From contig NZ_CAMLFY010000053.1 of the NCBI RefSeq assembly GCF_946479415.1, positions 1 through 27,766 of the forward strand: a stretch of 27,766 nt of DNA, in the 5' to 3' direction. Source of the DNA: an uncultured Shinella sp. (lineage in GTDB: Bacteria > Pseudomonadota > Alphaproteobacteria > Rhizobiales > Rhizobiaceae). The translations under genes were made by a program, and so were the position numbers. Below, piece after piece: positions 2,780-20,997 of the stretch. Under the pieces are notes generated by a model that saw only the letters and a program-made list of their open reading frames with translations, did not search any database and was not told the origin of the DNA. Every line of letters begins with the position of its first letter. Within the stretch, counting starts at the first letter, position 1.

Positions 2780-2807
2780 ATAATCCATAAAATCTATAGA
2801 TTATTTA
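2780..2807 (+). promoter_or_regulatory. Shared AT-rich operon-head element, copy A
   Basis: A 28-bp AT-rich block containing the perfect palindrome AATCTATAGATT (2791-2802). It matches the block at 13965-13992 at 21 of 28 positions, including an exact ATAAAATC and ATAGA core. It ends 27 nt before the ATG of the first LLM gene, the position expected for a promoter with an overlapping activator or repressor site. The binding protein is unknown; a LysR-type sulfur regulator of CysB/Cbl type is one possibility. Confidence 0.55.
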
Positions 2808-2834: not shown

Positions 2835-3827
2835 ATGACCTATCATCTCAGTCTTCTCGACAAAAGTCCGGTTGAAGCCGGCCAAAGCACCACGGACGCG
2901 TTGCACACGTCGGTGAAACTGGCTTTGAGGGCCGAAGCGCTGGGTTTTCACCGCTACTGGGTCGCCGAGCACCACAATATGGCCGGTCTTGCAAGCTCCG
3001 CGCCCGAAGCATTGATCGCCTACCTCCTGGCGAAGACGTCGCGGATTCGCGTCGGATCCGGCGGGGTCATGCTTCAGCACTACAGTGCCTACAAGGTCGC
3101 CGAAACCTTCAACCTGTTGTCTTCGCTGGCGCCGGGCAGGGTGGATCTCGGTGTCGGAAAGGCGCCGGGCGGGTTTCCGGTTTCGACCAGGGCACTTCAA
3201 GCGGCCATCGATCCCGAGCGAAAGCCGAAATTCGAAGATCAGCTCTCCGAACTCAATCAGTATCTTTCAACCGCGCCTGATAAGGCCGAGCTCGCCGCCA
3301 CCCCATTCCCCAGCGCGCCGCCCGAGCGTTTCCTGCTCGGCGCCAGCGTCGAAAGCGCGCGGCTTGCGGCGCAGAAGGGCTGGCATCTGGTCTTCGCCGG
3401 CCATCTCAATGGCGATCCCGAAAACCTGCGCCGGACGCTCGAAGCCTATCAGGCCGCAAGCGGCGGAAAATCCGCCATTCTGGCGCTCGCCGCCTTCGTG
3501 GCGGAAGACGGAGCGGTGGCCCGCGAGCGGGTCGCGGGGATGCGGATTTTCAAGGTCTTCCTGCCGAACGGGCAGAGCGTCAATGTCAGCACCGAAGAGC
3601 AGGCGGCCGAGTTTGCACGCCAGGCCGGCATCACGGACTACCGGGTCGAGGAGAAGGTGCCAAGCATCCTTCATGGCACCGCGGCCGAGGTGCGTCGTGA
3701 ACTCGACGGGCTGCACCGGCTCTACGGCATTTCCGAATTCATTCTCGAAACGCCGGCGCTGACCGCCGCCGAACGCCTCCAGTCCATCGAATTGCTCGCC
3801 AAGGGACGGCTGCCGCTTGCGGCCTGA
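2835..3827 (+). CDS. LLM class flavin-dependent oxidoreductase (MsnO8/YtmO-CmoO-like)
   Basis: A protein of 330 aa in the bacterial luciferase-like superfamily, the length of B. subtilis YtmO (CmoO). Visible family features are the N-terminal barrel strand MTYHLSLLDKSPV, RYWVAEHHNMAGLASSAPE (residues ~45-64), the VGSGGVMLQHYSAYKVAETFN segment split across ~75-95, and LAPGRVDLGVGKAPGG. These enzymes use reduced FMN and O2, so they need an FMN reductase in the cytoplasm; one is encoded at 14016. It is the first gene of the long operon, and the next gene starts 21 nt after its stop. Its partner LLM gene next door and the amidohydrolase and acetyltransferase after it suggest a role in oxidising an N-acylated S-substituted cysteine. 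The ribosome binding site is weak. Confidence 0.85.
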   Translation: MTYHLSLLDKSPVEAGQSTTDALHTSVKLALRAEALGFHRYWVAEHHNMAGLASSAPEALIAYLLAKTSRIRVGSGGVMLQHYSAYKVAETFNLLSSLAPGRVDLGVGKAPGGFPVSTRALQAAIDPERKPKFEDQLSELNQYLSTAPDKAELAATPFPSAPPERFLLGASVESARLAAQKGWHLVFAGHLNGDPENLRRTLEAYQAASGGKSAILALAAFVAEDGAVARERVAGMRIFKVFLPNGQSVNVSTEEQAAEFARQAGITDYRVEEKVPSILHGTAAEVRRELDGLHRLYGISEFILETPALTAAERLQSIELLAKGRLPLAA

Positions 3828-3848
3828 CCCAATTGGAAGGATAGCACC

Positions 3849-5198
3849 ATGACCCAGAACAAAATCACTTTCGGCATCATGCTCCAAGGCCCCGGCGGCC
3901 ACATGAATGCCTGGAAGCATCCAAGCGGACCGGCCGATGCGAGCGTCAATTTCCCGTTTTTCGTGGATGTGGCGCGCAAGGCTGAGCGCGCCGGTGTCGC
4001 CTTCGCCTTCGTCGCCGATGGTCTCTACATCAACGAGCAGTCGATTCCGCATTTCCTCAACCGCTTCGAGCCGATTTCCGTCCTTTCGGCGCTGGCGGCC
4101 TCGACCGCGAAGATCGGGCTCGTCGGTACGGTTTCGACCTCCTACAGCGATCCGTTCACCGTCGCGCGCCAGTTTGCCACGATCGACCTGATCAGCGGTG
4201 GAAGGGCGGGGTGGAACGCGGTGACGACCCCGCTTGAAGGATCTGGCCGCAACTACAGCCGCGAACACCCCGAGCACGAACTGCGCTACGAAATCGCCGA
4301 CGAATATCTCGATGTCGTCAAGGGTCTCTGGGATTCCTGGGATGACGATGCTTTCCTCCGTGATCGCGAAACCGGCGTCTTCGTGGACAAGGGCAAACTC
4401 CACCGGCTCAATCACAAGGGCCGCTTTTTCCGTGTGGAAGGGCCGCTGAACATCAGCCGCTCGCAGCAGGGACAACCGGTCGTCTTCCAGGCCGGCGCAT
4501 CGGACTCCGGCGTGAAGCTGGCCGGAAAACATGCCGATGCCGTGTTCACGAATGGCGGGCTGTTCGAAGATGCCGTGCCTTTCTACAGGCAGGTCAAGCA
4601 GAGCGCGGTCGCCCAGGGCCGCCGTGCGGCGGACGTGCGCATCTTTCCCGGCATCGCGCCCATCGTCGGCGCGACCGCCGAGGAGGCCGAGCGCAAATAC
4701 CAGGCCATCCGCAGTCTCGTGACGATCGAGGAAGCGCTGCTTTATCTTGGCCGGTTCTTCGATCACCACGATTTTAGCGCCTATCCGCTCGATGAAGCCT
4801 TTCCCGATATCGGCGATGTCGGCAAGAACAGTTTCCGCGCCACCACCGACCGCATCAAGAAGACGGCGCGCGAACAGAACCTCACCCTGCGGGAAATCGC
4901 GCTCGATGTCGCCACGCCGCGCACGGCCTTCATCGGAACGGCCGGCCAGATTGCCGACGAGATCATCCGTTGGGTCGATGGCGGTGCGGCCGATGGGTTC
5001 ATTCTCGGCTTCCAGGTGATCGCCGAAGGGTTCGACGACTTCGCGACCCATGTCCTGCCCATCCTTGAAGCTCGCGGTTATTTCAACCCGTCGCTCGACG
5101 GGGCGACATTGCGCGATCATCTGGGGCTGTCCTACCGCGAAAGCCGCTACACGGCGCCCGCCGACACGATCGAACCCGGAAAGGCGGTCGGCGCGTAA
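3849..5198 (+). CDS. NtaA/SnaA/SoxA (DszA) family FMNH2-dependent monooxygenase, YtnJ/CmoJ-like
   Basis: A protein of 449 aa, the usual size of the nitrilotriacetate / dibenzothiophene-sulfone monooxygenase branch of LLM enzymes. It shows the branch hallmarks [15 protein letters not shown] near the N terminus, [32 protein letters not shown], a long insertion loop ([18 protein letters not shown]), and [17 protein letters not shown]. These enzymes cleave C-N or C-S bonds oxidatively with FMNH2. A good ribosome binding site (GGAAGG, 3835-3840) precedes the ATG. B. subtilis YtnJ (CmoJ) belongs to this branch and works with an acetyltransferase and a deacetylase on N-acetyl S-alkyl- or S-succino-cysteine; the same companions follow here. 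Substrate assignment is inference. Confidence 0.87.
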
Positions 5199-5215
5199 AG
5201 CGTCGGTATAGAGCC

Positions 5216-6403
5216 ATGAACGCCATCGTCCATCCACCCCGTCTTGACGACCCCGTTGATCAGGGCATTGCTGCCTATATCGACGAAATCATCGCGCTTC
5301 GCCGTGATCTTCACCGCTATCCTGAGCTGGCCTTTCAGGAGCGCCGCACCAGCAAGCTCATAGCAGGCCAGCTTTCGTCCTGGGGCTACGACGTGACCTC
5401 AGGCATTGCCGGCACGGGTCTTGTCGCGACGCTTTCCAACGGAACCGGGACGCGGCGGCTGGGCATCCGGGCCGATATGGATGCCCTGCCGATCGAGGAA
5501 GCGACGGGGCTCGTTTATTCCAGCAGCAATCCGGGCGTGATGCATGCCTGCGGGCACGATGGCCACACCGCGATCCTTCTTGCCGCCGCGCGGTATCTCG
5601 CGCAAACCCGCGCCTTCAACGGCACGCTGCACCTCATCTTCCAACCGGCGGAAGAAATCGGCGCCGGTGCGCGAAAAATGCTGTCGGAAGGGCTTTTCGA
5701 GCGCTTTCCCGTGGATGCGGTGTTCGGGCTGCACAATTGGCCGGGCGTGGCGGCCGGACAGTTCGGTTTTGTTGCCGGACCGGCCATGGCCTCGGTCGAC
5801 CAGGCCGATATCCGCATCGTCGGCCGGGGCGGACATGGCGCCGAGCCGCAAAATGCCGTCGATCCCGTAGTCGCTACGGCCTCGCTGATCACGGCGCTGC
5901 AAAGCATCGTGTCGCGCAATGTCGATCCGCAGGATACGGCCGTCGTGACGGTCGGCTCCATTCACGCGGGCTCGGCATCCAATGTCATTCCCGAAAGCGT
6001 CGAGCTGAAGCTCACCATGCGGGCCTTCACCGAGGGCGTTCGCGAACAGTTGCGTGCCCGTATTCCGGCCCTTGCACGGGCGCAGGCGGAAAGTTTCGGC
6101 GCAGTGGCCGAGGTGGATTACCGGCTCGGCTTTCCCGCCCTCGTCAACGATCACGGGTCGACGGCACTCGCGCGAGACGTGGCACGGAAGACATTCGGGC
6201 CGGAGAAGGTCGAGGAGGGATTCCGGCCGCGCACGGCGAGCGAGGATTTCGCTTTCATGCTCCAGGCCCAGGCGGGCAGCTACCTTTTCGTCGGCAATGG
6301 CGAAAGCGCGCCGCTTCACAGCGCCCGCTACGATTTCAACGACGCGATCATCGCGCCGGCCGCCCGTTACTGGGTGCGCCTCACCGAAACCTTTCTCAAT
6401 TGA
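5216..6403 (+). CDS. M20 family amidohydrolase (N-acyl-amino-acid deacylase / hippurate hydrolase type)
   Basis: A protein of 395 aa, typical for M20D peptidases. The di-metal site motifs are visible: GIRADMDALPIEEATG, H110-A-C112-G-H114-D-G-H117, FQPAEEIGAGARKM with the acidic pair, GLHNWPG, and GGHGAEPQNAVDPV at the start of the dimerisation domain; the last ligand region is HSARYDFND. The family removes acyl groups from amino acids in the cytoplasm. In this operon it is the counterpart of B. subtilis YtnL (ScmL), which deacetylates the product after oxidative sulfur release. It begins 17 nt after the monooxygenase gene, and its start codon has only a weak ribosome binding site. Confidence 0.88.
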   Translation: MNAIVHPPRLDDPVDQGIAAYIDEIIALRRDLHRYPELAFQERRTSKLIAGQLSSWGYDVTSGIAGTGLVATLSNGTGTRRLGIRADMDALPIEEATGLVYSSSNPGVMHACGHDGHTAILLAAARYLAQTRAFNGTLHLIFQPAEEIGAGARKMLSEGLFERFPVDAVFGLHNWPGVAAGQFGFVAGPAMASVDQADIRIVGRGGHGAEPQNAVDPVVATASLITALQSIVSRNVDPQDTAVVTVGSIHAGSASNVIPESVELKLTMRAFTEGVREQLRARIPALARAQAESFGAVAEVDYRLGFPALVNDHGSTALARDVARKTFGPEKVEEGFRPRTASEDFAFMLQAQAGSYLFVGNGESAPLHSARYDFNDAIIAPAARYWVRLTETFLN

Positions 6404-6425
6404 TGTCAGCAACAGGACCGGCGAA

Positions 6426-6968
6426 ATGAGCGATACGTTCCTCTACACCACGCCTCTCGATCCACGCGCAAAGCCGCTGATCGACGAACTGACCCAAGAA
6501 TACGACCAGCGTTACGGCTCCTATTTCAGCGAGGCCGGCGCCGTCGAGGAGATGAACCGCTATCCGGCCGAAGCCTTCGCGCCGCCCTCGGGGAATTTCC
6601 TGCTGCTGCTGCGCAATGGCGAGGCGATCAGCGGCGGGGCCTTCAAGCACTATGACGAAGATACGGCAGAGTTCAAACGCATCTGGACACGCTCCGACCT
6701 GCGGCGGCAGGGTCTGGCGGTCAAGGTTCTGGTCGAGCTTGAGCATCAGGCCGTGCGGCAGGGCTATTCGCGCGTCTATCTCACGACGGGCTTCCGCCAG
6801 CCGGAGGCCGTCGGGCTTTACCTGAAGTATGGCTACACTGCGCTCTTCGACATCGATGCCGATCCGGAAATCTACAAGTCGCTGCCTTTCGAAAAGCGGA
6901 TCGGCCATCTCGCGACGCCCATAGCGGCGGTGCGGCCGCCGCTTCAGCTTGCAGTCCAGCACCGTTGA
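6426..6968 (+). CDS. GNAT family N-acetyltransferase (SnaA-like by context)
   Basis: A protein of 180 aa with the GNAT acetyl-CoA binding loop RSDLRRQGLAVKVLVELE and the C-terminal YLTTGFRQPEAVGLYLKYGY stretch, usual for acetyltransferases acting on small amines or amino acids. The start was set at ATG 6426 (MSDTFLYTT); the open frame extends back into the M20 gene but that part is not GNAT-like, and AGGACCGGCGA precedes 6426. In the B. subtilis ytmI operon the acetyltransferase SnaA caps the S-modified cysteine before oxidation; here it lies between the deacylase and the transporter, so the same acylate-oxidise-deacylate scheme is plausible. The acceptor is not shown by sequence. Confidence 0.85.
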   Translation: MSDTFLYTTPLDPRAKPLIDELTQEYDQRYGSYFSEAGAVEEMNRYPAEAFAPPSGNFLLLLRNGEAISGGAFKHYDEDTAEFKRIWTRSDLRRQGLAVKVLVELEHQAVRQGYSRVYLTTGFRQPEAVGLYLKYGYTALFDIDADPEIYKSLPFEKRIGHLATPIAAVRPPLQLAVQHR

Positions 6969-7000
6969 CCGGCCCGCGGCAATTCCAAAGGGGAAACACG

Positions 7001-8779
7001 ATGGCACTTACGACTGATTTTTCGGGCATCGACGTCGATCGCCGACCGGCCGAACAGCACAGACAGGATTATTCGCGCTACAGGATCGTTCCAGCGCGCC
7101 ACCCCGGGCGTCTGGTCGGGACGGTTTTTGCCGCTGTCGTCATTGCGGCCGTGGTCTATTCCACCTCCACCAATCCGCGCTGGGGCTGGAGCGTCTTCGG
7201 CGAGTGGTTCTTTTCCGAGCCGGTTCTGGCAGGGCTCGGCAGGACGCTTCTCCTGACGGTGCTGGCGACGATCTCGGGCTCCGTTCTCGGCACGGCACTG
7301 GCTCTCGCCCGCGTATCCGGGTCTCCGCTGCTTTCCAGCCTGTCCTGGGCCTATATCTGGCTGCTTCGGTCGATCCCGCTCATCGTTCTGCTCCTGGTGC
7401 TGAACAATCTCGGCTATCTCTACGAATCGGTGCGGATTGGGCTGCCATTCAGCGATACGCTCCTCATCGACTACCCGATGGTGCAACTCCTGACGCCGTT
7501 CGGCGCCGCATTCCTGGGGCTCACGCTCAACCAGTCCGCCTTCTTCGCAGAGATCGTGCGTGGCGGCATTCTCTCCGTCGATCAGGGACAACATGAGGCG
7601 GCTGCGGCGCTTGGCTTGCCGCGCCGCCGGCAGGCCTTCCGTATCGTCCTGCCGCAGGCCATGCGCTCCATTCTGCCGACGGGCTTCAACGAGATCATCG
7701 GTCTCGCGAAGAGCACGTCCATGGTCTATGTCCTGGCCCTCCCGGAATTGTTCTATACCGTCCAGGTCATTTACCGGCGCAATCTCGAGGTCATACCGCT
7801 GCTGATGGTGGCGACGGCCTGGTATCTGGTGATCATGACGGTCCTGTCGATCGCCCAGCACTATATCGAGCGCCATTTCTCCAGGGGCGCCGTGCGCAAT
7901 CCCGTGCCGCTGCCGTTCCAGTCCTTCCTTGCGCGTTTCCGCCGCCCGGTTTCGTCCCGGACGACGGTTGTGCCGGCCGTACGCCAGTCCGGCTTCAAGG
8001 ATGCGGCACAGCTGCGCACCGGCGGCACCGTCCGCATCCAGAAGATCTCGAAAAGCTTCGAATCCCTGAAGGTACTCGACGACGTCGATCTCGTTCTGCC
8101 GGCCGGAAGCGTCACGGCCATTCTCGGTCCGTCCGGTTCCGGCAAGTCGACCCTGTTGCGCACGATCAATCATCTCGAGCGTGCAGACAGCGGCTTCATC
8201 GCCATCGATGGCGAACTCGTCGGCTACAGCCAGAAGGGCGACACGCTCTATGAGCTCAAGGAGAAGGAGATACTGAAGCGCCGCGCCGACATCGGCATGG
8301 TGTTCCAGAACTTCAATCTCTTCCCGCATCTGACGGTTCTTGAAAACCTGATCGAAGCGCCGATCGAGGTGCGCGGGACGAGCCGTGACGAGGCGATCCG
8401 GTTTGCAAGCGAACTGCTTGCCCGCGTCGGCCTCGGCGACAAGATCAACGCCTATCCGCGCCAGCTTTCCGGTGGTCAGCAACAGCGCGTCGCGATCGCC
8501 CGCGCGCTTGCATTGAAGCCGAAGGTGCTGCTCTTCGACGAGCCGACCTCGGCGCTCGATCCGGAACTCGTCGGCGAAGTGCTCGACGTGATCAAGGAAC
8601 TTGCCAGCACCGGCACCACGCTCGTCATCGTCACCCATGAGACCGGTTTTGCCCGCGAGGTCGCAGACACCGTGGTCTTCATGGAGGGTGGGCGCATTCT
8701 GGAGGCGGGTCCACCCGCACGCATCTTCGCCAACGCGGACCACCCGCGCACGCGCGAATTCCTCGCAAAGGTTCTCTAG
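7001..8779 (+). CDS. Polar amino acid ABC transporter, fused permease and ATP-binding protein
   Basis: A 592-aa fusion. Residues ~35-300 form a His/Glu-Gln type permease: GLGRTLLLTVLATISGSVLG opens the inner membrane domain, and the EAA loop reads QHEAAAALGLPRRRQAFRIV. From ~345 an ATPase follows with Walker A GPSGSGKS at 376, signature LSGGQQQR at 489, Walker B LLFDEP with D513-E514, and the switch histidine in IVTHETGFA. Fusions of this type exist in the polar amino acid uptake family but are less common than separate genes. The start is ATG 7001 after AAAGGGGAAACACG; an upstream in-frame start at 6965 overlaps the acetyltransferase gene. It should work with one or both binding proteins downstream to import an amino acid-like compound. 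Confidence 0.92.
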   Translation: MALTTDFSGIDVDRRPAEQHRQDYSRYRIVPARHPGRLVGTVFAAVVIAAVVYSTSTNPRWGWSVFGEWFFSEPVLAGLGRTLLLTVLATISGSVLGTALALARVSGSPLLSSLSWAYIWLLRSIPLIVLLLVLNNLGYLYESVRIGLPFSDTLLIDYPMVQLLTPFGAAFLGLTLNQSAFFAEIVRGGILSVDQGQHEAAAALGLPRRRQAFRIVLPQAMRSILPTGFNEIIGLAKSTSMVYVLALPELFYTVQVIYRRNLEVIPLLMVATAWYLVIMTVLSIAQHYIERHFSRGAVRNPVPLPFQSFLARFRRPVSSRTTVVPAVRQSGFKDAAQLRTGGTVRIQKISKSFESLKVLDDVDLVLPAGSVTAILGPSGSGKSTLLRTINHLERADSGFIAIDGELVGYSQKGDTLYELKEKEILKRRADIGMVFQNFNLFPHLTVLENLIEAPIEVRGTSRDEAIRFASELLARVGLGDKINAYPRQLSGGQQQRVAIARALALKPKVLLFDEPTSALDPELVGEVLDVIKELASTGTTLVIVTHETGFAREVADTVVFMEGGRILEAGPPARIFANADHPRTREFLAKVL

Positions 8780-8859
8780 CAAATTTTCCGCCCACAGCCA
8801 TGGACGGAAGACGACCGACAATATCTACAACCCTGAGATGAAGAAAAGGATACGGGACC

Positions 8860-9798
8860 ATGGCATTTCTCGACAAGGCAAAACTTCTGATGGCAGGTGC
8901 TGCGCTGGCCCTGGGCCTCGGCGGCGCGCAGGCGGCTGAAAAATTCGATCTCAGCCCCGACACGTCCAACCGCATTCGCGCTGAAAAGAACGAAGAGGCG
9001 ATCAAGGCAATCTCCCCGGACTTCAAATTCGTCGCGCCGGGCAAGTTCACGGTGGCGATTGCCGCCTGGGATCCACCGGTCGCCACCTTCGCGTCCGATG
9101 CCAAGACGATCGTCGGCACGGACCCCGACCTTGCGCAGCTCCTGGCGGATTCGCTCGGGCTGGAGCTGGACATCGTATCGGTCGCCTGGGCCGATTGGCC
9201 GCTCGGCGTTTCCTCCGGCAAATATGATGCCGTGATCAGCAACGTCACGGTCACGGAGGAGCGCAAGGAGAAATTCGATTTCTCCACGTATCGCAAGGAT
9301 GTGCTCGGCTTTTACGTGAAGGCCGACAGCCCGATCAAGGAGATCAAGGAAGCCAAGGATGTTGCAGGCCTCAAGGTGATCACTGGCGCCGGCACAAACC
9401 AGGAAAAGGTCCTGCTGGAATGGGACCGCCAGAACGTCGCGGCCGGTCTGAAGCCGGTGGAAGTGCAGTATTACGACGACCGTGCGGCAAGCGAGCTGGC
9501 CCTGTCGTCCGGCCGTGCCGACGCTGAATTCAATCCGAACGCGACACTGGCCTATGGCTCGGCCATCAAGGGCCAGACCAAGCTTGTCGGCATCGTCAGC
9601 GGCGGCTGGCCGCTGACGGCCGAGATCGCGGTCACGACCCGCAAGGGCGCCGGTCTGGCCGATGCTCTGACTGTCGCCATCAACGGCCTTATCAAAAGCG
9701 GCGAATACGGCGAGGTGCTGAAGCGCTGGAACCTGGAAGCCGAAGGCATCGACGAGGCCTTCACCAACCCGGCAGGCCTGCCGAAGAGCGGCTCCTGA
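8860..9798 (+). CDS. Periplasmic amino acid-type ABC substrate-binding protein, copy 1
   Basis: A protein of 312 aa with a signal peptide (hydrophobic core LLMAGAALALGLGG, likely cleavage after AQA) followed by a family 3 solute-binding fold. Typical signs are the GTDPDLAQLLADSLGLELDIV segment, YDAVISNVTVTEERKEKFDFS, and the hinge-side GLKVITGAGTNQEK. It is placed 80 nt after the fused permease-ATPase and is clearly its exported partner. A paralogue with more than half identical residues follows directly. The ligand-contact region differs between the two: this copy has RADAEFNPNATLAYGSA where copy 2 has RADVIVQPHAQLVYIAA, so they may bind different compounds. Confidence 0.9.
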   Translation: MAFLDKAKLLMAGAALALGLGGAQAAEKFDLSPDTSNRIRAEKNEEAIKAISPDFKFVAPGKFTVAIAAWDPPVATFASDAKTIVGTDPDLAQLLADSLGLELDIVSVAWADWPLGVSSGKYDAVISNVTVTEERKEKFDFSTYRKDVLGFYVKADSPIKEIKEAKDVAGLKVITGAGTNQEKVLLEWDRQNVAAGLKPVEVQYYDDRAASELALSSGRADAEFNPNATLAYGSAIKGQTKLVGIVSGGWPLTAEIAVTTRKGAGLADALTVAINGLIKSGEYGEVLKRWNLEAEGIDEAFTNPAGLPKSGS

Positions 9799-9812
9799 TC
9801 CCCAAGTCCCTG

Positions 9813-9844
9813 AGAATCGGCGCTCTCGGGCGCCGGTTCTTTCA
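9813..9844 (+). terminator. Terminator/attenuator-like hairpin between the two binding-protein genes
   Basis: Arms AGAATCGGCGC (9813-9823) and GCGCCGGTTCT (9830-9840) pair over 11 bp with one T-G wobble and a 6-nt loop, followed by TTTC. The downstream T-run is short, so it probably gives partial termination or protects the 3' end of the upstream message. That would raise binding protein 1 over the genes that follow. Confidence 0.65.
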
Positions 9845-9869
9845 AATCAAAAAGCATGGAGACGATGTC

Positions 9870-10808
9870 ATGATCCGCAGCCCAGCCTTCCGAACCTTCG
9901 TTCTCGGCACGCTTGTATCGACTTTTTCCCTGATCGGCGTGGCGATGGCCGATGAGGTCTTCGATCTCAGCCCGCAACAGGCTGGACGCCTTCATACCGA
10001 ACGGAACGAGAAGGCAGTCGCCGCGATCGCGAAGGACTTCACCTTCGTCACGCCGGGCAAGTTCACCGTCGCCGTCAGCCCTGGCGGACCACCGCTTGCC
10101 ACCTATGCGACCGATGCAAGCACGGTCGTCGGGGCCGATCCGGACTACGCCTCCGCGATCGCCGAAAGTCTGGGCCTGGAACTCGAACTCGTTCCGGTTG
10201 CCTGGATCGATTGGCCGCTCGGCCTGACGTCGGGCAAATACGATGCCGTCATCTCCAATGTCGGCGTTACCGAGCAGCGCAAGGAAAAATTCGATTTCTC
10301 GACCTATCGGCAGGGTCTGCACGGCTTCTTCGTGAAATCCGACAGCGCCATCACCGCGATCGCCGTGCCGAAGGATGCGGCAGGTCTCAGGATCATCGTG
10401 GGCGCAGGCACCAACCAGGAGCGCATCCTGCTGCGCTGGAACGACGAGAACGTCGCCGCCGGCCTGAAACCGCTTGAGCTGCAATATTACGACGACGAGG
10501 CTGCAAGCCTCCTCGCGCTTTCCTCCGGTCGTGCGGATGTCATCGTCCAGCCGCATGCCCAGCTCGTTTATATCGCCGCCCGGGATCACAACATCAAACG
10601 CGTCGGCACGTTGAGCGCCGGCTGGCCCGACCGTTCCGACGTGGCGATTACCACGCGCAAGGGCAGCGGATTGGCCGAAGCGCTGACCGTCGCAACCAAC
10701 GGTCTCATCGACAGCGGTCTCTACGCGAAAATCCTTGAGCGCTGGCATCTGAGCGAGGAAGCGCTTCCGAAATCGGAAACCAATCCGCGCGGCCTGCCGA
10801 AGTCCTGA
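9870..10808 (+). CDS. Periplasmic amino acid-type ABC substrate-binding protein, copy 2
   Basis: A protein of 312 aa, paralogous to the product of the preceding gene over its whole length, including KFTVAV, GKYDAVISN, KEKFDFSTYR, GAGTNQE, NVAAGLKP, YYDD and the C-terminal NPxGLPKS ending. The signal peptide has the core FVLGTLVSTFSLIGVAMA. The start is ATG 9870 with GGAGACG upstream. No second permease is encoded nearby, so both binding proteins probably dock on the same fused permease-ATPase and widen its substrate range. The next gene, a third LLM oxidoreductase, starts 14 nt after its stop, suggesting that this copy is linked to that enzyme. Confidence 0.9.
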   Translation: MIRSPAFRTFVLGTLVSTFSLIGVAMADEVFDLSPQQAGRLHTERNEKAVAAIAKDFTFVTPGKFTVAVSPGGPPLATYATDASTVVGADPDYASAIAESLGLELELVPVAWIDWPLGLTSGKYDAVISNVGVTEQRKEKFDFSTYRQGLHGFFVKSDSAITAIAVPKDAAGLRIIVGAGTNQERILLRWNDENVAAGLKPLELQYYDDEAASLLALSSGRADVIVQPHAQLVYIAARDHNIKRVGTLSAGWPDRSDVAITTRKGSGLAEALTVATNGLIDSGLYAKILERWHLSEEALPKSETNPRGLPKS

Positions 10809-10822
10809 GCCGGAACGAGACG

Positions 10823-11905
10823 ATGAGCGATCGAAAGATATCGATAAGCCATATCGGCTTCCTTTCCCCCGGCAACTACCCCGCCGCCGACCCGCTTGCC
10901 GGACTGGAGAAGACGTTGGGGCTTTTGGAGTTCGGCGAGGCGCTGGGGTTCGGAAGTGCCTGGGTTCGCCAGCGGCACCTTGAGCCGGGCATTTCCTCTG
11001 CGGCTGCTTTTCTGGCGGCCGCAAGCCAGCGGACGAAACGTATCCAGCTGGGCACTGCCGTCATTCCGATCGGATATGAAAGCCCCTATCGCCTGGCCGA
11101 AGATCTTTCGACGGTCGATGTGCTCGCGCGCGGGCGGCTCAACATTGGTCTCAGCGCCGGCCGGCCGCTGCATGCCGATCTCATCGGCAAGCTCGTCTTC
11201 GACGACGATTGGGAGCGGCTCGACTTTTCCCATGAACGGGTGCTGCGTTTCGTCGAAAACCTGCGCAGCCGTCCGATCGGTGACGACACGACCTTCATCA
11301 AGACGCCGTTCGGCCCGCAGCGGCCGCGCCTACAGCCCTATGCGGAGGGCCTGACGGAGCGCGTCTGGTACGGCGGCGGTTCGCTGCGGTCAGCCGCATG
11401 GGCCGGTCGGAACGGCTTCAATCTTCTCATCGGCAACGTGACGACGGGGGAGGAGACGGACGACTTCTTCGTCGCGCAGGCGCGCCAGCTCGAAACCTAT
11501 CGGGCAGCGGGAGGCGAGAGGCGTCGGGTCGCGCTTGGCCGCGTGATCGTGCCGCTGGATGGAGCGGACGCCAAGACACGCCGGCGTTATCTCGACTACG
11601 CCGCAAGCCGGACCGAGCGGACGCTGACACCGCAAGGTGAGCGTCGAACTCTCTATGCCCAGGATATCGTCGGAACCGCCGAGCAAATCCTCGAGCGCCT
11701 TCATGCCGATCCTATCCTGCCCCATGTCAGCGAGCTGCGGCTTGAGCTTCCCTACGAGTTCGAAGACGAGGAATATCGCCAGATCGTCCACGATTTCGTA
11801 ACCCGGATCGCACCGGAACTCGGCTGGCACAGGCCATCTTCCGCAAATGGTTTGAACAACAATATTCCACCGGCGGCCGTGCCGTCGCTTTCCGGGAGCC
11901 TCTAA
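10823..11905 (+). CDS. LLM class flavin-dependent oxidoreductase (third LLM of the operon)
   Basis: A protein of 360 aa with luciferase-like barrel features: ISHIGFLSPGNYP at the N terminus, LLEFGEALGFGSAWVRQRHL, IQLGTAVIPIGYESPYRLAEDLSTVD, ARGRLNIGLSAGRPL, and a late RVWYGGGSLRSAAWAGRNGFN. It should use FMNH2 and O2, needing the FMN reductase. It is neither SfnG-like nor DszA-like; the exact subfamily was not recognised. It is preceded by GGAACGAGACG and ends with TAA directly followed by the GTG start of the next gene, so the two are tightly coupled. The C-terminal ~20 residues (SSANGLNNNIPP onward) look like a disordered tail. Confidence 0.85.
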   Translation: MSDRKISISHIGFLSPGNYPAADPLAGLEKTLGLLEFGEALGFGSAWVRQRHLEPGISSAAAFLAAASQRTKRIQLGTAVIPIGYESPYRLAEDLSTVDVLARGRLNIGLSAGRPLHADLIGKLVFDDDWERLDFSHERVLRFVENLRSRPIGDDTTFIKTPFGPQRPRLQPYAEGLTERVWYGGGSLRSAAWAGRNGFNLLIGNVTTGEETDDFFVAQARQLETYRAAGGERRRVALGRVIVPLDGADAKTRRRYLDYAASRTERTLTPQGERRTLYAQDIVGTAEQILERLHADPILPHVSELRLELPYEFEDEEYRQIVHDFVTRIAPELGWHRPSSANGLNNNIPPAAVPSLSGSL

Positions 11906-12502
11906 GTGACGAAAACAATCGACTATTTCTTCTCCATCGGCTCCCCCTGGTCCTATCTCGGCTTCGACACTTTCGTTGGTATCGCCGCACGCCATGGCGC
12001 CGAGATCAGGCCCTATCTGACGACGGTCATCGAAGAGAACGGCGGCATCTTTTCGCGAAACCGGCCGGATATTCGCCGTGCCTACGGGACACGCGACCTG
12101 CAACGATGGGCGAGGGCGCGGGAAAAGGATCTGCGCCTCGACGACAGGCAAGGGCTGAGCGACCCGACACCGGCATCCTTACTCGTCATCGCGGCCTTTC
12201 TGGACGGCCAGGATTGGGGCGGCCTGACGCGGGTTTTGCAACAGGCTTTCTGGGCCGAGGCGAGGGATATCGGCAATCCGCATGTGCGCGAGGCGATTGC
12301 CAGTGCCGCCGGTTTTGACGGTGCAGCGCTTGGGCGGCGCGAAACCGATGAAGACGTCAGGACGAAGTGGGCGGCCGACCGCAGCCATGCCGTCGCGGCA
12401 GGCGTTTTCGGATTCCCGACCTATGTCTATGACGAGGAGCTTTATTGGGGGCAGGACAACCTGGCCTTTCTGGAGCGTCATCTCAACGGCGAGCGCCCCT
12501 GA
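11906..12502 (+). CDS. DsbA-family / 2-hydroxychromene-2-carboxylate isomerase-like protein (kappa-class GST fold)
   Basis: A protein of 198 aa starting at GTG, directly after the stop of the LLM gene with no gap. The N terminus FSIGSPWSYLG places Ser13 where kappa GSTs and HCCA isomerases have their glutathione-contacting serine; there is no CXXC, so it is not a thiol oxidase. The cis-proline loop GVFGFPTYV has P171, and WGQDNLAFLERHL closes the protein as in the family. These enzymes bind glutathione as cofactor for isomerisation or conjugation. Next to an oxygenase and a C-S lyase-like enzyme, it may handle a glutathione- or cysteine-linked intermediate; the real reaction is unknown. Confidence 0.85.
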   Translation: MTKTIDYFFSIGSPWSYLGFDTFVGIAARHGAEIRPYLTTVIEENGGIFSRNRPDIRRAYGTRDLQRWARAREKDLRLDDRQGLSDPTPASLLVIAAFLDGQDWGGLTRVLQQAFWAEARDIGNPHVREAIASAAGFDGAALGRRETDEDVRTKWAADRSHAVAAGVFGFPTYVYDEELYWGQDNLAFLERHLNGERP

Positions 12503-12543
12503 TAGAGGTGGACAGCACCAAGTTGCCTCTGGAGCAAGCGATC

Positions 12544-13734
12544 ATGAACGACAAGACAGACACGCCCCCGCAACACGGCCCGCAGACACGGCTGGTCAAG
12601 GCGGGGCATGATCCGGCCAGCCAGCGCGGCTTTATCAATCCACCCGTCGTGCATGGATCGACGGTTTTGTTTCCCGACGCGCACACGATGGCGACGCACG
12701 GGCAGAAATACACCTACGGAACGCGCGGCACGCCAACCACGGATGCCCTGTGCGATGCGATCAACGAGCTGGAAAGTGCAGCCGGCACGATTCTCGTTCC
12801 CTCCGGCCTCGCCGCCGTCACGGTTCCTCTCCTGGCCTATCTGTCCGCTGGAGACCACGCGCTGATCGTCGACAGCGTTTACGGCAATGTGCGCGAGTTC
12901 TGCGATAGCATGCTGGGACGGCTCGGCATCGCGGTCGATTATTACGATCCTTCGCTCGGTGCGGATATCGAGCGCCTCTTCAAGCCCAATACGCGCCTCG
13001 TGCACACCGAGGCGCCGGGGTCCAATACATTCGAGATACAGGACATCCCGGCGATCGTCGCGGTCGCCCGTCGTCACGGTGCAATCGTGATGATGGACAA
13101 CACCTGGGCGACGCCGCTCTATTTCAAACCGCTCGATTTCGGTGTGGATGTTTCCATCCAGGCCTCGACGAAGTATCCCGCCGGCCACGCGGATATCCTG
13201 TTTGGAACGGTGTCGGCCAATGCAAAACACTGGCCGCGGCTGAAAGAGGCAAACGGTCTGCTCGGCCTTTGCGCGGCGCCCGATGATGCCTATCAGGTCC
13301 TGAGGGGGCTGCGCACGCTCGGCGTGCGGCTCGATCGCCACCAGGCAAGCGCGCTCGAGATTGCGACATGGCTGGAAACACGCGACGATGTCGCCCGCGT
13401 CCTGCATCCGGCGCTGCCCAGCTTTCCGGGCCACACCATCTGGAAGCGGGATTTCAAAGGCGCGAGCGGCGTCTTTTCCTTCATTCTGCGTGTTGAGCGG
13501 CCGGATCAGTTTACGGCCAAAGCCCGGGCGTTCCTCAATGCACTCTCGATCTTTGGGCTGGGTTATTCCTGGGGCGGTTTTGCTTCATTGGCCCTGCAAG
13601 TATCGCTTCGCGATCGCAAGGCGACGCGCGTTCCAACCGACGGACCTGTTCTTCGGCTGCAGATCGGGTTGGAAGACGTCACTGATCTTAAAGCCGACCT
13701 CGACCGCGCCTTTGCTGCGGCACGGGCTGCCTAG
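12544..13734 (+). CDS. Cystathionine beta-lyase-like PLP enzyme (Cys/Met metabolism family)
   Basis: A protein of 396 aa, the standard length of trans-sulfuration enzymes. The PLP lysine is K210 in QASTKYPAGHADILFG; YGTRGTPTTDAL supplies the phosphate-contacting region from the neighbouring subunit, MMDNTWATPLYFKPL holds the aspartate that contacts the PLP ring nitrogen, and SWGGFASL near the C terminus is the carboxylate-binding region. The best match in character is cystathionine beta-lyase (often metC), which splits cystathionine or S-alkylcysteines into a thiol, pyruvate and ammonia. The start is ATG 12544 after TGGAGC; the open frame runs upstream into the previous gene. It starts 41 nt after that gene, so it probably ends the same operon and could release the sulfur of an imported conjugate. 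Confidence 0.9.
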   Translation: MNDKTDTPPQHGPQTRLVKAGHDPASQRGFINPPVVHGSTVLFPDAHTMATHGQKYTYGTRGTPTTDALCDAINELESAAGTILVPSGLAAVTVPLLAYLSAGDHALIVDSVYGNVREFCDSMLGRLGIAVDYYDPSLGADIERLFKPNTRLVHTEAPGSNTFEIQDIPAIVAVARRHGAIVMMDNTWATPLYFKPLDFGVDVSIQASTKYPAGHADILFGTVSANAKHWPRLKEANGLLGLCAAPDDAYQVLRGLRTLGVRLDRHQASALEIATWLETRDDVARVLHPALPSFPGHTIWKRDFKGASGVFSFILRVERPDQFTAKARAFLNALSIFGLGYSWGGFASLALQVSLRDRKATRVPTDGPVLRLQIGLEDVTDLKADLDRAFAAARAA

Positions 13735-13964: not shown

Positions 13965-13992
13965 ATAATATATAAAATCCATAGAAAATATG
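13965..13992 (+). promoter_or_regulatory. Shared AT-rich operon-head element, copy B
   Basis: It is 28 bp long, identical to copy A (2780-2807) at 21 positions, with the common core ATAAAATC-N-ATAGA. It ends 23 nt before the FMN reductase start codon, almost the same spacing as copy A to its gene. Similarity is confined to this element, which argues for a functional site rather than a duplicated upstream region. Confidence 0.55.
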
Positions 13993-14015
13993 TTCCAAGA
14001 CAGAAGGGGATCGCC

Positions 14016-14606
14016 ATGAAAGTCCTGGGAATTTCCGGCAGCGTCAAGCGGCCGTCGAGAACCGCACATATCGTCGAGCGCATCGTCGGCGCGATCGGGC
14101 AGGCGGCCGATGTTGAAATCGATCATCTCGATCTCGCCGACGCCGCACCGGTGCTCTTCCGCGCGTTGCGGGCAGACCAGCTTGACGAGGCCGGGCGCGC
14201 GATCGTCGATGCGGTCGAGGCCGCCGACGTGCTCGTCGTCGGCTCCCCGGTCTATCGCGCCTCTTATACAGGGGCTCTCAAGCATCTTTTCGATCTGGTC
14301 GATTTCCGCGCCTTGCAGGGCCATCGGGTGATCCTGGCCGCAACCGGCGGTACGCCGTTGCATGGCTTGATGCTGGAGCATCAGTTCCGTCCGCTTTTCG
14401 GCTTCTTCGGCGCCGTTACCGTGCCGACGACCGTCTATGCCGTCGAGGCGGATTTCACCGAATACACGCTTTCGAACCCGGCCGTCGAAGCACGCATCGA
14501 GCGTGCCGTCGCCGAATTGTTCGACCTTCTGCCCGCCGCGACGCTTGCCGCCGGCAGCACCCATCCGGCCCTTCGCGTCGTTTCGCGCGAAACGGCCGCC
14601 AATTGA
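14016..14606 (+). CDS. NAD(P)H-dependent FMN reductase (MsuE/SsuE-like)
   Basis: A protein of 196 aa with the flavodoxin-like fold of sulfur-starvation FMN reductases. The FMN-phosphate loop is ISGSVKRPSRTAHIVERI near the N terminus, and VVGSPVYRASYTGALKHLFD (residues ~73-92) is the signature of the SsuE/MsuE group. It supplies FMNH2 to two-component monooxygenases, here most directly SfnG encoded next door, and possibly the three LLM enzymes of the upstream operon, which has no reductase of its own. The start is ATG 14016, with AGAAGGGGATC as ribosome binding site; an upstream in-frame ATG lies inside the AT-rich element. It is first in its operon. Confidence 0.9.
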   Translation: MKVLGISGSVKRPSRTAHIVERIVGAIGQAADVEIDHLDLADAAPVLFRALRADQLDEAGRAIVDAVEAADVLVVGSPVYRASYTGALKHLFDLVDFRALQGHRVILAATGGTPLHGLMLEHQFRPLFGFFGAVTVPTTVYAVEADFTEYTLSNPAVEARIERAVAELFDLLPAATLAAGSTHPALRVVSRETAAN

Positions 14607-14630
14607 CATCAGGAAGAGAGGAGTACCCCC

Positions 14631-15734
14631 ATGACTGAACAGAGCAGGGACGCCGTGAAATTCGCCTATTGGGTGCCGAATGTTTCCGGTGGCCTCGTCA
14701 TCTCCAATATCGATCAGCGCACCAGCTGGACGATCGAATACAACCGCAAGCTTGCCCAGATCGCCGAAGCAAGCGGCTTCGACTATGCGCTGAGCCAGAT
14801 CCGCTTCACGGCCGGCTACGGCGCGGAGTTCCAGCACGAATCCGTCTCCTTCAGCCATGCCTTGCTGGAGTCGACGACGACGCTGAAGGTTATCGCCGCC
14901 ATCCTGCCCGGTCCGTGGAACCCGGCGCTTGCCGCCAAGCAGATCGCGACTATCAACCATCTCACGAATGGCCGTGTCGCCGTCAATGTCGTCAGCGGCT
15001 GGTTCCGCGGCGAGTTTCAGGCGATCGGCGAACCCTGGCTCGATCATGATGAACGGTATCGCCGCTCGGAAGAGTTCATCCGCGCACTGCGCGGCATCTG
15101 GACGGAAGAAAACTTCACTTTCCGCGGCGATTTCTATCGTTTCAACAACTATTCCCTGAAGCCGAAGCCGATCGATCCGCAGCCGGAAATCTTCCAGGGC
15201 GGTTCCTCGCGCGCGGCACGCGACATGGCCTCGCGCGTGTCCGACTGGTACTTCACCAATGGCAACACGCCCGAGGAGATCGCCAAGCAGGTCGACGACA
15301 TCAGGGCGAAGGCCAGGGAGAACGACCATTCGGTCAAGGTCGGCGTCAACGCCTTCGCCATCGTGCGTGAGACCGAGGAAGAGGCGAGGGCCGTGCTCGC
15401 CGAGATCATCGAGAAGGCCAATCCGGAAGCGGTCAACGCCTTCGGCCATGAGGTGAAGAATGCCGGCAAATCTTCGCCGGAGGGTGAGGGCAACTGGGCG
15501 AAATCGAGCTTCGAGGACCTCGTTCAGTACAATGACGGCTTCCGTTCCAATCTGATCGGTACGCCGAAACAGGTGGCCGAGCGCATCGTGCGCCTGAAGC
15601 GCGCCGGCGCCGACCTCATCCTGCTCGGTTTCCTGCATTTCCAGGAAGAGGTCGAGTATTTCGGCAAGCACGTCATCCCGCTGGTGCGTGCGCTGGAAGA
15701 GGCCGAGGAAAACGCCGCCATCGCGGCAGAATAA
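14631..15734 (+). CDS. sfnG: FMNH2-dependent dimethylsulfone monooxygenase
   Basis: A protein of 367 aa, very close to SfnG of pseudomonads: FAYWVPNVSGGLV at the N terminus, RKLAQIAEASGFDYALSQI, FTAGYGAEFQHESVSFSHAL, AAILPGPWNPALAAKQIAT, VNVVSGWFRGEFQAIGEPW, LDHDERYRRSEEFIRALRG, and LLGFLHFQEEVEYFGKHVIP near the end. SfnG converts dimethylsulfone, with FMNH2 and O2, to methanesulfinate and formaldehyde. The FMN reductase gene is 24 nt upstream, and a good ribosome binding site (GAGAGGAG) precedes the ATG. The further enzymes that release sulfite from methanesulfinate (MsuC/MsuD type) are not in this window. Confidence 0.92.
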   Translation: MTEQSRDAVKFAYWVPNVSGGLVISNIDQRTSWTIEYNRKLAQIAEASGFDYALSQIRFTAGYGAEFQHESVSFSHALLESTTTLKVIAAILPGPWNPALAAKQIATINHLTNGRVAVNVVSGWFRGEFQAIGEPWLDHDERYRRSEEFIRALRGIWTEENFTFRGDFYRFNNYSLKPKPIDPQPEIFQGGSSRAARDMASRVSDWYFTNGNTPEEIAKQVDDIRAKARENDHSVKVGVNAFAIVRETEEEARAVLAEIIEKANPEAVNAFGHEVKNAGKSSPEGEGNWAKSSFEDLVQYNDGFRSNLIGTPKQVAERIVRLKRAGADLILLGFLHFQEEVEYFGKHVIPLVRALEEAEENAAIAAE

Positions 15735-15751
15735 GGCAAGACGAACCAAGC

Positions 15752-15776
15752 GGAGCGGCGGCCCGGCTGCCGCTCC
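15752..15776 (+). other. Strong GC hairpin between sfnG and the ABC transporter genes
   Basis: GGAGCGGC / GCCGCTCC pair perfectly and the stem can extend inward with one G-T wobble. There is no T-run afterwards. Placed 18 nt after the sfnG stop and 70 nt before the transporter, it more likely stabilises or separates message segments than ends transcription. Confidence 0.5.
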
Positions 15777-15845
15777 CTGCAACGCGGATGCGATCGTGCC
15801 CGCGAAGGAAAGCCTGTGCCCGCTGGGCAATGGACGGAATGAACC

Positions 15846-16757
15846 ATGTCGGCATCGAATTATCTGCTCGTGGGGCTTGGCAGCGAGGTGGCCGTTCCAC
15901 CCGATATCGCGGAGCATCTTGCGCTGCGCAACGCCTCTGCCGAGCCGCTCGCGCCACAACCGGACAAGACGCTCGCGCTGGAACTCAACGGCATCGACCT
16001 GTCCTTCGGCGGTGTGGTCGCGCTCAAGGACGTGGACTTGGCGGTGCGTCATGGTGAGATCCGCGCGATCATCGGTCCCAACGGCGCCGGCAAGAGTTCG
16101 CTGATCAATGTCATTTCCGGCGTCTATCGGCCGGATCGCGGCCATGTCGCGATCCATGGCTTCGCCTACCAGCCGGTCCCGACGCAGAAGCTGGCCAAGC
16201 TTGGTGTCGCCCGCACCTTTCAGAACCTTGCGCTCTTCAAGGGTCTCAGCGTGCTCGACAACGTCGCCGCCGGCCGCGCCTATGCCGGTCGGTCGAATTT
16301 TCTCAGCCAGATCATCGGCCTCCCCAACGCGCGCCGCGAACAGGCGGATGCCCGCGAACGGGCGGGCCGGATCATCGATTTCCTGAACCTCAAACCCTAT
16401 GCCGACCGGCTGGCCGGCACGCTGCCCTATGGCCTGCAGAAGCGCGTGGAGCTGGCGCGGGCGCTGGCCGCAGAGCCGCGCATCCTGCTGCTCGACGAGC
16501 CCATGGCAGGCATGACGGCGACGGAGAAGAACGAACTCGCGGACTATGTCCGCCTCGCACGCGACGAATACGCCATCACCGTCGTGCTGATCGAGCACGA
16601 TATCGGCGTGGTCATGGGTCTCTCCGACCGCATCGCCGTGCTCGATTATGGCCGCAAGATCGCCGACGGCACGCCAAAGGAGATCGCAAGTGATCAGCGC
16701 GTCATCGACGCCTATCTCGGCGTGCCGCCGGAAAACGAAGACGGGGAGGGCATCTGA
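15846..16757 (+). CDS. Branched-chain-type ABC transporter ATP-binding protein (LivG family)
   Basis: A protein of 303 aa: an N-terminal extension of ~45 residues not usual in LivG, then a full ATPase. Walker A is GPNGAGKSS, the Q-loop is ARTFQNLALFKGLSVLDNV, the signature is degenerate (LPYGLQKRVELARAL) as in many LivG proteins, Walker B is ILLLDEPMAGM, and the switch is IEHDIGVVM. It energises uptake together with the LivF-type subunit at 20196. It ends with TGA overlapping the ATG of the permease gene (A of ATG at 16757), so they are translationally coupled. Its ribosome binding site is weak. The neighbourhood (SfnG, SfnB) suggests a sulfur compound rather than a branched-chain amino acid as substrate. 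Confidence 0.88.
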   Translation: MSASNYLLVGLGSEVAVPPDIAEHLALRNASAEPLAPQPDKTLALELNGIDLSFGGVVALKDVDLAVRHGEIRAIIGPNGAGKSSLINVISGVYRPDRGHVAIHGFAYQPVPTQKLAKLGVARTFQNLALFKGLSVLDNVAAGRAYAGRSNFLSQIIGLPNARREQADARERAGRIIDFLNLKPYADRLAGTLPYGLQKRVELARALAAEPRILLLDEPMAGMTATEKNELADYVRLARDEYAITVVLIEHDIGVVMGLSDRIAVLDYGRKIADGTPKEIASDQRVIDAYLGVPPENEDGEGI

Positions 16758-17653: not shown

Positions 17654-17654
17654 T

Positions 17655-18695: not shown

Positions 18696-18786
18696 GATCC
18701 GAAGCTCCCGCTTCCAACAACAAAAACCCCGAATCCCTGAAACAACGGACGGCCGAGCGCCGCCGACAGACGGAGTGTGCCTAGAC

Positions 18787-20121: not shown

Positions 20122-20127
20122 TGCTTC

Positions 20128-20164
20128 CGGCCGGGCACCGGAAGGTTCTCTCCGTGCCCGGCCG
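20128..20164 (+). other. Long hairpin between binding-protein and LivF genes
   Basis: Perfect 11-bp arms CGGCCGGGCAC (20128-20138) and GTGCCCGGCCG (20154-20164); the 15-nt loop can pair further with a bulge. There is no T-run. Such hairpins after binding-protein genes commonly protect the upstream message and give the binding protein higher expression than the other subunits; here that is inferred. Confidence 0.6.
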
Positions 20165-20195
20165 TAACAACCGAGATCCGCGAGGAAAATTCGAC

Positions 20196-20972: not shown

Positions 20973-20997
20973 ACCCAACCTGAAGAGGAGACTTGCC

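Follow-up and report, generated by a model that had tools for sequence, protein, structure and literature searches.

Gene content of the locus

The DNA analysed here, which we call the window, is a stretch of 27,766 nucleotides from an uncultured Shinella sp. (NZ_CAMLFY010000053.1), and between positions 2835 and 13734 it carries a single plus-strand block of ten intact open reading frames (Table 1). The block encodes two luciferase-like monooxygenases (LLMs) of CmoO-like and CmoJ-like type (here called CmoO and CmoJ), an M20 amidohydrolase, a GNAT acetyltransferase, an amino-acid ATP-binding cassette (ABC) importer with two family-3 solute-binding proteins (SBP1 and SBP2), a third LLM (LLM3), a DSBA-fold protein and a cystathionine beta-lyase. 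Intergenic gaps are 0-41 nt, except for 71 and 80 nt around the binding-protein genes, and the nearest named protein homologues come from Shinella, Pararhizobium, Rhizobium and Ensifer, which marks the window as rhizobial. A first-pass annotation had described a same-strand block with a YtmO-size LLM, an NtaA/DszA-branch monooxygenase, an M20 deacylase, a GNAT and an ABC importer; every one of these families was matched, on intact plus-strand frames, and the last three genes of the block, which it did not list, are added here. We propose that the block probably encodes a sulfur-salvage route for S-alkylated cysteine, using mercapturate-type chemistry, in which the CmoO/CmoJ logic of Bacillus is built from other parts.

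Beyond a 281-nt gap after the block, further plus-strand genes reach to position 23934; they encode MsuE, SfnG, an ABC importer of the branched-chain type, SfnB and an FAD/NAD(P)-binding protein. Rfam and tRNA scans of the whole window returned no matches, and a promoter/terminator consensus scan of the window gave matches no more numerous than in shuffled sequence.

Table 1. Features of the window, in order of position
Feature	Position	Strand	Basis
Dyad copy 1, putative operator	2781-2802	-	31.6 bits; 32 nt before cmoO ATG
CmoO-like LLM monooxygenase, MsnO8 family; predicted S-oxidation of N-acetyl-S-alkylcysteine	2835-3827	+	TIGR03558 329 bits, cut-off 167
CmoJ-like C-S monooxygenase, NtaA/DmoA family	3849-5198	+	TIGR03860 508 bits, cut-off 280; trees
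M20 amidohydrolase, predicted N-acetylcysteine deacetylase	5216-6403	+	TIGR01891 352 bits, cut-off 154
GNAT, predicted S-alkylcysteine N-acetyltransferase	6426-6968	+	Pfam GNAT; no NCBIfam model above cut-off
Amino-acid ABC permease fused to ATPase, likely start ATG 7001	6965-8779	+	BPD_transp_1 + ABC_tran
Family-3 solute-binding protein 1 (SBP1)	8860-9798	+	SBP_bac_3
Family-3 solute-binding protein 2 (SBP2)	9870-10808	+	profile match
LLM3, third luciferase-like monooxygenase	10823-11905	+	no NCBIfam subfamily above cut-off
DSBA-fold / 2-hydroxychromene-2-carboxylate isomerase-like protein	11906-12502	+	PF01323; PDB 2imd, 3fz5
Cystathionine beta-lyase, ATG 12544	12538-13734	+	PRK05967 711 bits, cut-off 649
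Dyad copy 2, putative operator	13966-13987	-	30.8 bits; 28 nt before msuE ATG 14016
MsuE FMN reductase, likely FMNH2 source for monooxygenases	14016-14606	+	TIGR03566 236 bits, cut-off 212.5
Second, separable module	14631-22245	+	SfnG, LivG/H/M-type ABC, binding protein, LivF-type ATPase, SfnB
SfnG	14631-15734	+	TIGR04021 612 bits
Liv-type binding protein	18775-20121	+	module gene
LivF-type ATPase	20121-20972	+	module gene
SfnB	about 20998-22245	+	TIGR04022 600 bits
Dyad copy 3, putative operator	22459-22480	+	21.9 bits; upstream of FAD/NAD gene
FAD/NAD(P)-binding protein, probable ATG 22552	22513-23934	+	PF13454

Relationship to the Bacillus operons

In the known pathway, as described in PMC10863075, S-alkylcysteine is acetylated, oxidised by CmoO, cleaved by CmoJ to an aldehyde and N-acetylcysteine sulfenate, reduced, and deacetylated, a sequence demonstrated with S-benzyl and other S-alkyl groups. 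The window CmoJ matches PDB entry 3sdo at 643 bits and B. subtilis YtnJ at 538 bits, with the next chain at 292 bits; 3sdo, which outscores YtnJ, is labelled nitrilotriacetate monooxygenase, a label that looks wrong. Two trees, one with 68 rows drawn from TIGR03860 and other LLM proteins and one with the 57 rows left after removal of 11 long or fragmentary ones, recover a CmoJ clade of 29. This clade unites the window enzyme and those of the proteobacterial blocks with YtnJ, with the operon enzymes of Listeria, Niallia, Paenibacillus, Pantoea and Ewingella, and with a further enzyme from Niallia. Its support is an SH-like approximate likelihood ratio (SH-aLRT) of 90 in the first tree (100 with one Paraburkholderia paralogue added) and 94/94 in the second (100/99 for the clade of 30 that includes this paralogue). 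For CmoO, a quick tree of 37 rows, in which operon enzymes of Listeria, Niallia and Paenibacillus serve as surrogates for YtmO, places the window protein and the Firmicute operon enzymes together in a clade of 26 (SH-aLRT 98) and leaves six other MsnO8-family paralogues outside; the window CmoO is 41-44% identical to the Listeria, Paenibacillus and Niallia enzymes and 53% to those of Pantoea and Ewingella. By these trees, CmoJ is orthologous to YtnJ, and CmoO to the Firmicute ytm CmoO.

The same three enzyme classes would also serve salvage of S-(2-succino)cysteine, a form of succination damage, which the Bacillus scm (yxe) cluster handles by the shared logic of acetylation, C-S cleavage and deacetylation. 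The first-pass annotation had mixed the two systems, naming S-(2-succino)cysteine as a ytm substrate and ScmL as the ytm deacetylase; PMC12757645 assigns this substrate to the separate scm/yxe cluster and describes ScmL as the acetyltransferase of that cluster. In the scm cluster, however, YxeK or 2SL cleaves the substrate and there is no sulfoxidase, while CmoO, a separate sulfoxidase, is found in 80/80 of the related loci described below, and no Lyase_1 (2SL-like) protein was found among the window proteins scanned with Pfam. Moreover, the YxeK-like protein used as a surrogate, from a Niallia scm-type cluster with Lyase_1, GNAT, binding protein, permease and M20 genes, falls outside the CmoJ/YtnJ clade in both trees, on another TIGR03860 branch. 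Because the window CmoJ lies on the YtnJ side, the YxeK-like protein outside, and CmoO with the Firmicute operon enzymes, we favour S-alkylcysteine salvage and regard an S-(2-succino)cysteine route as improbable. The Niallia cluster (L176:7474-14188) is of separate interest in that it pairs a Lyase_1 (2SL-like) gene with a YxeK-like monooxygenase, a pairing described as rare.

The acetyltransferase and deacylase fall in other subfamilies than their Firmicute counterparts. The window GNAT groups with rhizobial, burkholderial and Pantoea proteins in one family (50-83% identity to the window protein), and the Listeria, Niallia scm and Ewingella GNATs make up a second, with 30-38% identity among themselves over 166-171 aa (the Listeria operon GNAT is 35% identical to that of Niallia over 168 aa and 38% to that of Ewingella over 171 aa). 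Against this second family the window protein reaches at best 26% over 100 aa, to the Listeria operon GNAT, and it is not of the SnaA/YxeL type. Its AlphaFold2 (AF2) model, with a predicted local distance difference test score (pLDDT) of 90.7, shows an ordinary GNAT fold; PDB and Foldseek searches returned general GNATs only, and assignment of function from fold was dropped. In a tree of M20 enzymes, 12 operon M20s, that of the window among them, group together (100/100), and YxeP sits with five Firmicute/Pantoea enzymes in a separate clade (100/99). A constraint joining the operon M20s with the Firmicute N-acetylcysteine deacetylases of the ScmP/YtnL kind, represented by YxeP and the Firmicute operon M20s, was rejected (approximately unbiased test, p-AU 0.006), in a test that used 19 hand-picked paralogues and a stricter branch cut, with groups named after an earlier tree had been seen. 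The first-pass annotation, which read the locus as a functional equivalent of the Bacillus operon with added enzymes, gave as one refuting outcome that the four proteins fall in unrelated subfamilies: two of the four, GNAT and M20, do so, and CmoJ and CmoO sit in the predicted clades, which supports its interpretation in part. From these comparisons, two of the four proteins would be common with Bacillus by descent and two would be replacements.

For the B. subtilis ytmI (ytm/cmo) operon as a whole, gene content follows the first-pass annotation, and YtnJ alone was compared directly. The window block resembles it in an orthologous C-S monooxygenase with an MsnO8-family partner; on that content, both also combine an acetyltransferase and an M20 deacylase with an ABC importer for amino acids. 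It differs in the subfamilies of its GNAT and M20, in its fused permease/ATPase and two distant binding proteins, and in lacking a glutaredoxin (CmoI) and RibR; LLM3, a cysteine-free DSBA-fold protein and cystathionine beta-lyase are added. The Firmicute reference actually compared, a Listeria ytm-like operon (L115), likewise has an FMN reductase, GNAT, ABC importer, CmoO and CmoJ, but its GNAT is SnaA-type, its permeases and ATPase are separate genes, a glutaredoxin lies between CmoO and CmoJ, and no M20 is listed in the stretch fetched. Two further statements of the first-pass annotation hold: the transporter layout is indeed different, and no riboflavin kinase-like gene of the RibR family was found among the window genes scanned (none is listed beside the Listeria operon either).

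In the window only 21 nt, and no glutaredoxin gene, separate cmoO from cmoJ. The sole thioredoxin-like protein found in the block by Pfam is the DSBA-fold protein, a weak match to 2-hydroxychromene-2-carboxylate isomerases. Since its translation contains zero cysteines, it cannot take on the dithiol-reductase role of the Firmicute glutaredoxin; a glutathione-dependent role is our guess.

Conservation and edges of the block

We compared the best 80 of 578 loci found with the window CmoJ, examining at most 10 kb on each side and setting presence thresholds gene by gene at 45-60% identity; one locus (L077) spans only 4 kb. CmoJ identity to the window copy is 68-88% across this set and, because these loci are the closest relatives, the counts cover that part of the family only. 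Besides cmoO, the core consists of GNAT (79/80), permease/ATPase (79/80), SBP1 (78/80) and SBP2 (78/80), the last two being paralogues whose counts may include cross-matches. M20 is present in 64/80, LLM3 in 63/80, the DsbA-like protein in 21/80 and cystathionine beta-lyase in 8/80. Hosts include Rhizobiaceae, Phyllobacterium, Brucella-named species (which we take to be former Ochrobactrum species), Bosea, Methylobacterium and Roseomonas, and further Variovorax, Acidovorax, Paraburkholderia, Aquitalea and Stenotrophomonas, with a rearranged version in Pantoea; "alphaproteobacterial counterpart", the first-pass description, is therefore too narrow. Among 289 genomes drawn evenly from the class of genome G001, CmoJ at 62% identity or more occurs in only three, G001 itself among them, and the enzyme is therefore patchy in distribution. 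One record with a proteobacterial-type block is titled Mycobacterium sp. KBS0706 (L033); its GNAT, binding protein and transporter are inverted, and the organism name is doubtful.

The co-occurrence of these genes in the 80 loci places the block arrangement far above chance. Such genomes are rich in LLM genes (5 and 15 TIGR03860 matches above cut-off in the two genomes searched), and some juxtaposition of luciferase-like genes with a transporter might arise by accident. A gene set kept across three proteobacterial classes already contradicts such a chance pile-up of unlinked neighbours, which we consider scarcely credible.

The window ATPase is nearest to the TcyN model, below cut-off, and is 49% identical to the Listeria operon ATPase; SBP1 and SBP2 are only 25% (over 151 aa) and 24% (over 232 aa) identical to the Listeria operon binding protein, and SBP1 lacks a close solved relative (best PDB match 64 bits). 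The permease/ATPase fusion recurs in five annotated relatives, while Neorhizobium lists the ATPase alone and Pantoea has separate genes. In Ewingella (L116:1682-6797), a peptide-type layout of two permeases, a long binding protein and a double-domain ATPase lies between MsnO8/GNAT and CmoJ, which suggests peptide-bound S-conjugates as substrates there; similar double-domain ATPases lie 3' of CmoJ in L113 and L114. LLM3 has a confident luciferase-like AF2 model (pLDDT 86.2) without close kin, its best PDB match being 8k74 at 22% identity; PDB and Foldseek gave general luciferase-like relatives only, and assignment of its function from fold was dropped. The divergent binding proteins, the frequent LLM3 and the Ewingella importer beside the same enzymes would all fit another amino-acid-like organosulfur or xenobiotic substrate, such as herbicide S-conjugates, plant thioethers or peptides, handled by the same enzyme logic. 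Set against this are the orthology of CmoO and CmoJ and the range of S-alkyl groups on which the known pathway works, so that varied caps are already tolerated; we hold such a substrate to be a real but lesser possibility than S-alkylcysteine.

The right edge of the block is marked by the best places of a megablast search: plasmid records of Sinorhizobium sp. RAC02 and Ensifer sp. PDNC004 match the cysteine block only, ending at 13715 and 13738, and Shinella H4-D48 and the listed Agrobacterium records match only from about 14005-14223 to ~22243. SfnG, LivG and the Liv binding protein (at least 50% identity) occur in 0/80 loci, an SfnB-like protein (at least 40%) in 3/80 and an MsuE-like protein (at least 35%) in 8/80. 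Because of these megablast splits and missing sfn genes, we take 2835-13734 as the true unit with a real right edge, and the sfn module as a neighbour here. We accordingly dropped the sfn genes as part of the same conserved cluster, their module being kept elsewhere. On the other side of the block, an S-(hydroxymethyl)glutathione synthase gene (GFA, 419-1009), formaldehyde-related, lies near the formaldehyde-releasing monooxygenases; this proximity is not conserved, GFA and an MFS gene each occurring in 0/80 loci at the thresholds used, and GFA was dropped as a system member.

The neighbouring region 14016-22245 is itself a complete MsuE-SfnG-Liv-type ABC-SfnB module for dimethylsulfone-type sulfur, which on plasmids of Shinella and Agrobacterium is kept as a block by itself. 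The MsuE, SfnG and SfnB genes, which it shares with Pseudomonas msu/sfn, follow the cysteine block directly in the window, and the first of them bears the dyad described below; unlike in Pseudomonas, they belong to a module that has a Liv-type importer of its own and is conserved separately from the cysteine block. To our knowledge, no substrate has been described for SfnG paired with an importer of the branched-chain type. In Acinetobacter, one MsuE supplies several monooxygenases (PMC13352529). Further downstream, 24338-25063 is a minus-strand frame of 241 aa without a Pfam match.

A shared dyad and the proposed route

The 140 nt upstream of cmoO contain a dyad (consensus TGTCTACTGATTTTATAGACTA) that lies 21-49 nt before the start codon in 35 training loci; by eye, several Agrobacterium and Neorhizobium loci carry it in reverse orientation. 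A 22-bp position weight matrix was trained on the cmoO-upstream sites of these 35 other loci (22 distinct sites), with the window and L001 left out. In the window it marks three transcription units, those of cmoO, msuE-sfnG...sfnB and the FAD/NAD gene, at 31.6, 30.8 and 21.9 bits, against a top score of 13.3 bits among 30 simulated windows. A homologue of the FAD/NAD(P) protein (63%) lies near a dyad-bearing TauD-like gene in L263.

Genome-wide, a strict pattern with up to three mismatches gave 7 matches in six genomes, against 0 for the backwards pattern, and a degenerate pattern with up to one mismatch gave 52 strand matches in ten genomes, against 4 (among the 52 are cmoO sites, and places matched on both strands count twice). 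Among 18 regions fetched in three genomes, one was without a site (L262) and one was a cmoO site (L265). Genes near the remaining sites encode a TauD-like dioxygenase, MsuE, SsuD, an SsuD-like LLM, a DszC/SfnB-like enzyme, SfnB, and two TIGR03860 enzymes at distances of 87 and 357 nt; in the second case, a gene for a peptide-binding protein lies across the site. Other neighbours encode a short-chain dehydrogenase/reductase (SDR), a GGDEF protein, an AraC/sugar-binding pair, a second sugar-binding protein and a GlnII-like protein; these, together with sites inside or behind genes, are taken as chance matches.

We then counted dyads by gene family in nine rhizobial genomes, at a score of at least 15 bits within 350 nt upstream, cut-offs that were set after the window scan had been seen. 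Scoring covered matches with a returned locus, 30 each for MsuE, SsuD and SDR, and for SfnB 17 that passed the cut-off and 12 that did not, with one further SfnB match that passed it (L352) left out as a fragment. The dyad precedes MsuE in 8/12 cases, and flavin reductases under the cut-off in 0/18. It precedes SsuD in 4/10, with 4/20 for below-cut-off matches, and TauD-like genes in 2/3 by script and pattern scan together (1/3 by script alone, which misplaced L362, where the pattern match G301:C4:808-827 sits 156 nt before the gene). SDR control genes gave 0/30, although four of these loci end at contig ends and their 350-nt slices may be misplaced, and the downstream slices of every gene set held 0 dyads. 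Fisher tests give 4e-6 for MsuE against SDR and 9e-5 for the pooled 15/42 against 0/30, values that are not independent tests because the nine genomes are related and most of their cmoO sites were in the training set. The counts therefore indicate that the dyad marks some, and far from all, sulfur-scavenging promoters, and it points to a sulfur-scavenging regulon.

Several results weigh against the proposed route or its regulation. LLM3 has no place in the Bacillus scheme, and Firmicute surrogates stand in for B. subtilis YtmO, SnaA, YtnL, YhaA, YxeK and YxeL. By the alignments and trees above, the GNAT and M20 are not orthologous to their Firmicute counterparts, so that the acetylation and deacetylation steps rest on operon position. 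M20 is missing from 16/80 loci, one of them only 4 kb long. The dyad is rare upstream of SfnB (2/17, and 2/12 for below-cut-off matches), its degenerate pattern was not found in the Microvirga genome (one of the ten searched), and by eye it is missing from most cmoO promoters outside Rhizobiaceae. For M20, a search of ten genomes found that all 8 of the 8 lacking a cluster copy have a homologue elsewhere (best match 47-60% identical), and deacetylase redundancy is known in B. subtilis (PMC12757645). The Burkholderiales cmoO promoters compared (L050, L056, L059, L063, L064, L068, L074, L076, L079, L080) have no dyad and by eye have a different element in common (ATATCGATA ... AGCGCAA); another regulator is therefore likely there.

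Because two orthologous flavoenzymes stand beside an acetyltransferase, a deacylase and an importer for amino acids, with MsuE next to the block, the Bacillus route is our best reading of the block. The ABC importer, with its two binding proteins, would take up S-alkylcysteine or a derivative, which the GNAT, judging by operon position, would N-acetylate. By orthology, CmoO would form the sulfoxide and CmoJ would oxidatively cleave the C-S bond to an aldehyde and N-acetylcysteine sulfenate, with MsuE supplying reduced flavin mononucleotide (FMNH2). More speculatively, low-molecular thiols, perhaps with the cysteine-free glutathione transferase-like DSBA-fold protein, may reduce the sulfenate. 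The M20 enzyme would then free cysteine, which cystathionine beta-lyase may split further. The dyads upstream of cmoO, msuE and the FAD/NAD gene suggest joint induction with sulfone, sulfonate and taurine genes under sulfur shortage. Three annotated relatives carry nearby a gamma-glutamylcyclotransferase, a gamma-glutamyltransferase, and a MalY/PatB protein with cysteine synthase, respectively; such glutathione-turnover or C-S lyase neighbours are anecdotal, and fit turnover of glutathione conjugates.

Among the open-access papers searched, we did not find a proteobacterial counterpart, or this operator, described. Distribution beyond Bacillus is not a new claim, since PMC10863075 already calls the pathway widely distributed in soil bacteria; what is new here is the 22-bp dyad tying the block to other sulfur-scavenging genes. 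Tentatively, and short of even confidence, we suggest a Rhizobiaceae regulon in which a TCTAY-N7-RTAGA-type operator links the salvage of S-alkylcysteine with the use of sulfones, sulfonates and taurine, and a convergent module in which only the two flavoenzymes are common with Bacillus, the acetylase, deacetylase and importer were recruited independently, and LLM3 adds an extra step. If this is true, a large group of plant-associated bacteria would be able to live on S-alkylated cysteine, the compound with which glutathione conjugation ends in soil and plants, and its use would fall under common sulfur-shortage control. The block would also be a clear example of a single pathway logic (acetylate, oxidise, cleave, deacetylate) retained around two orthologous flavoenzymes with the flanking enzymes swapped, and both the regulator and the LLM3 enzyme would become directly testable.

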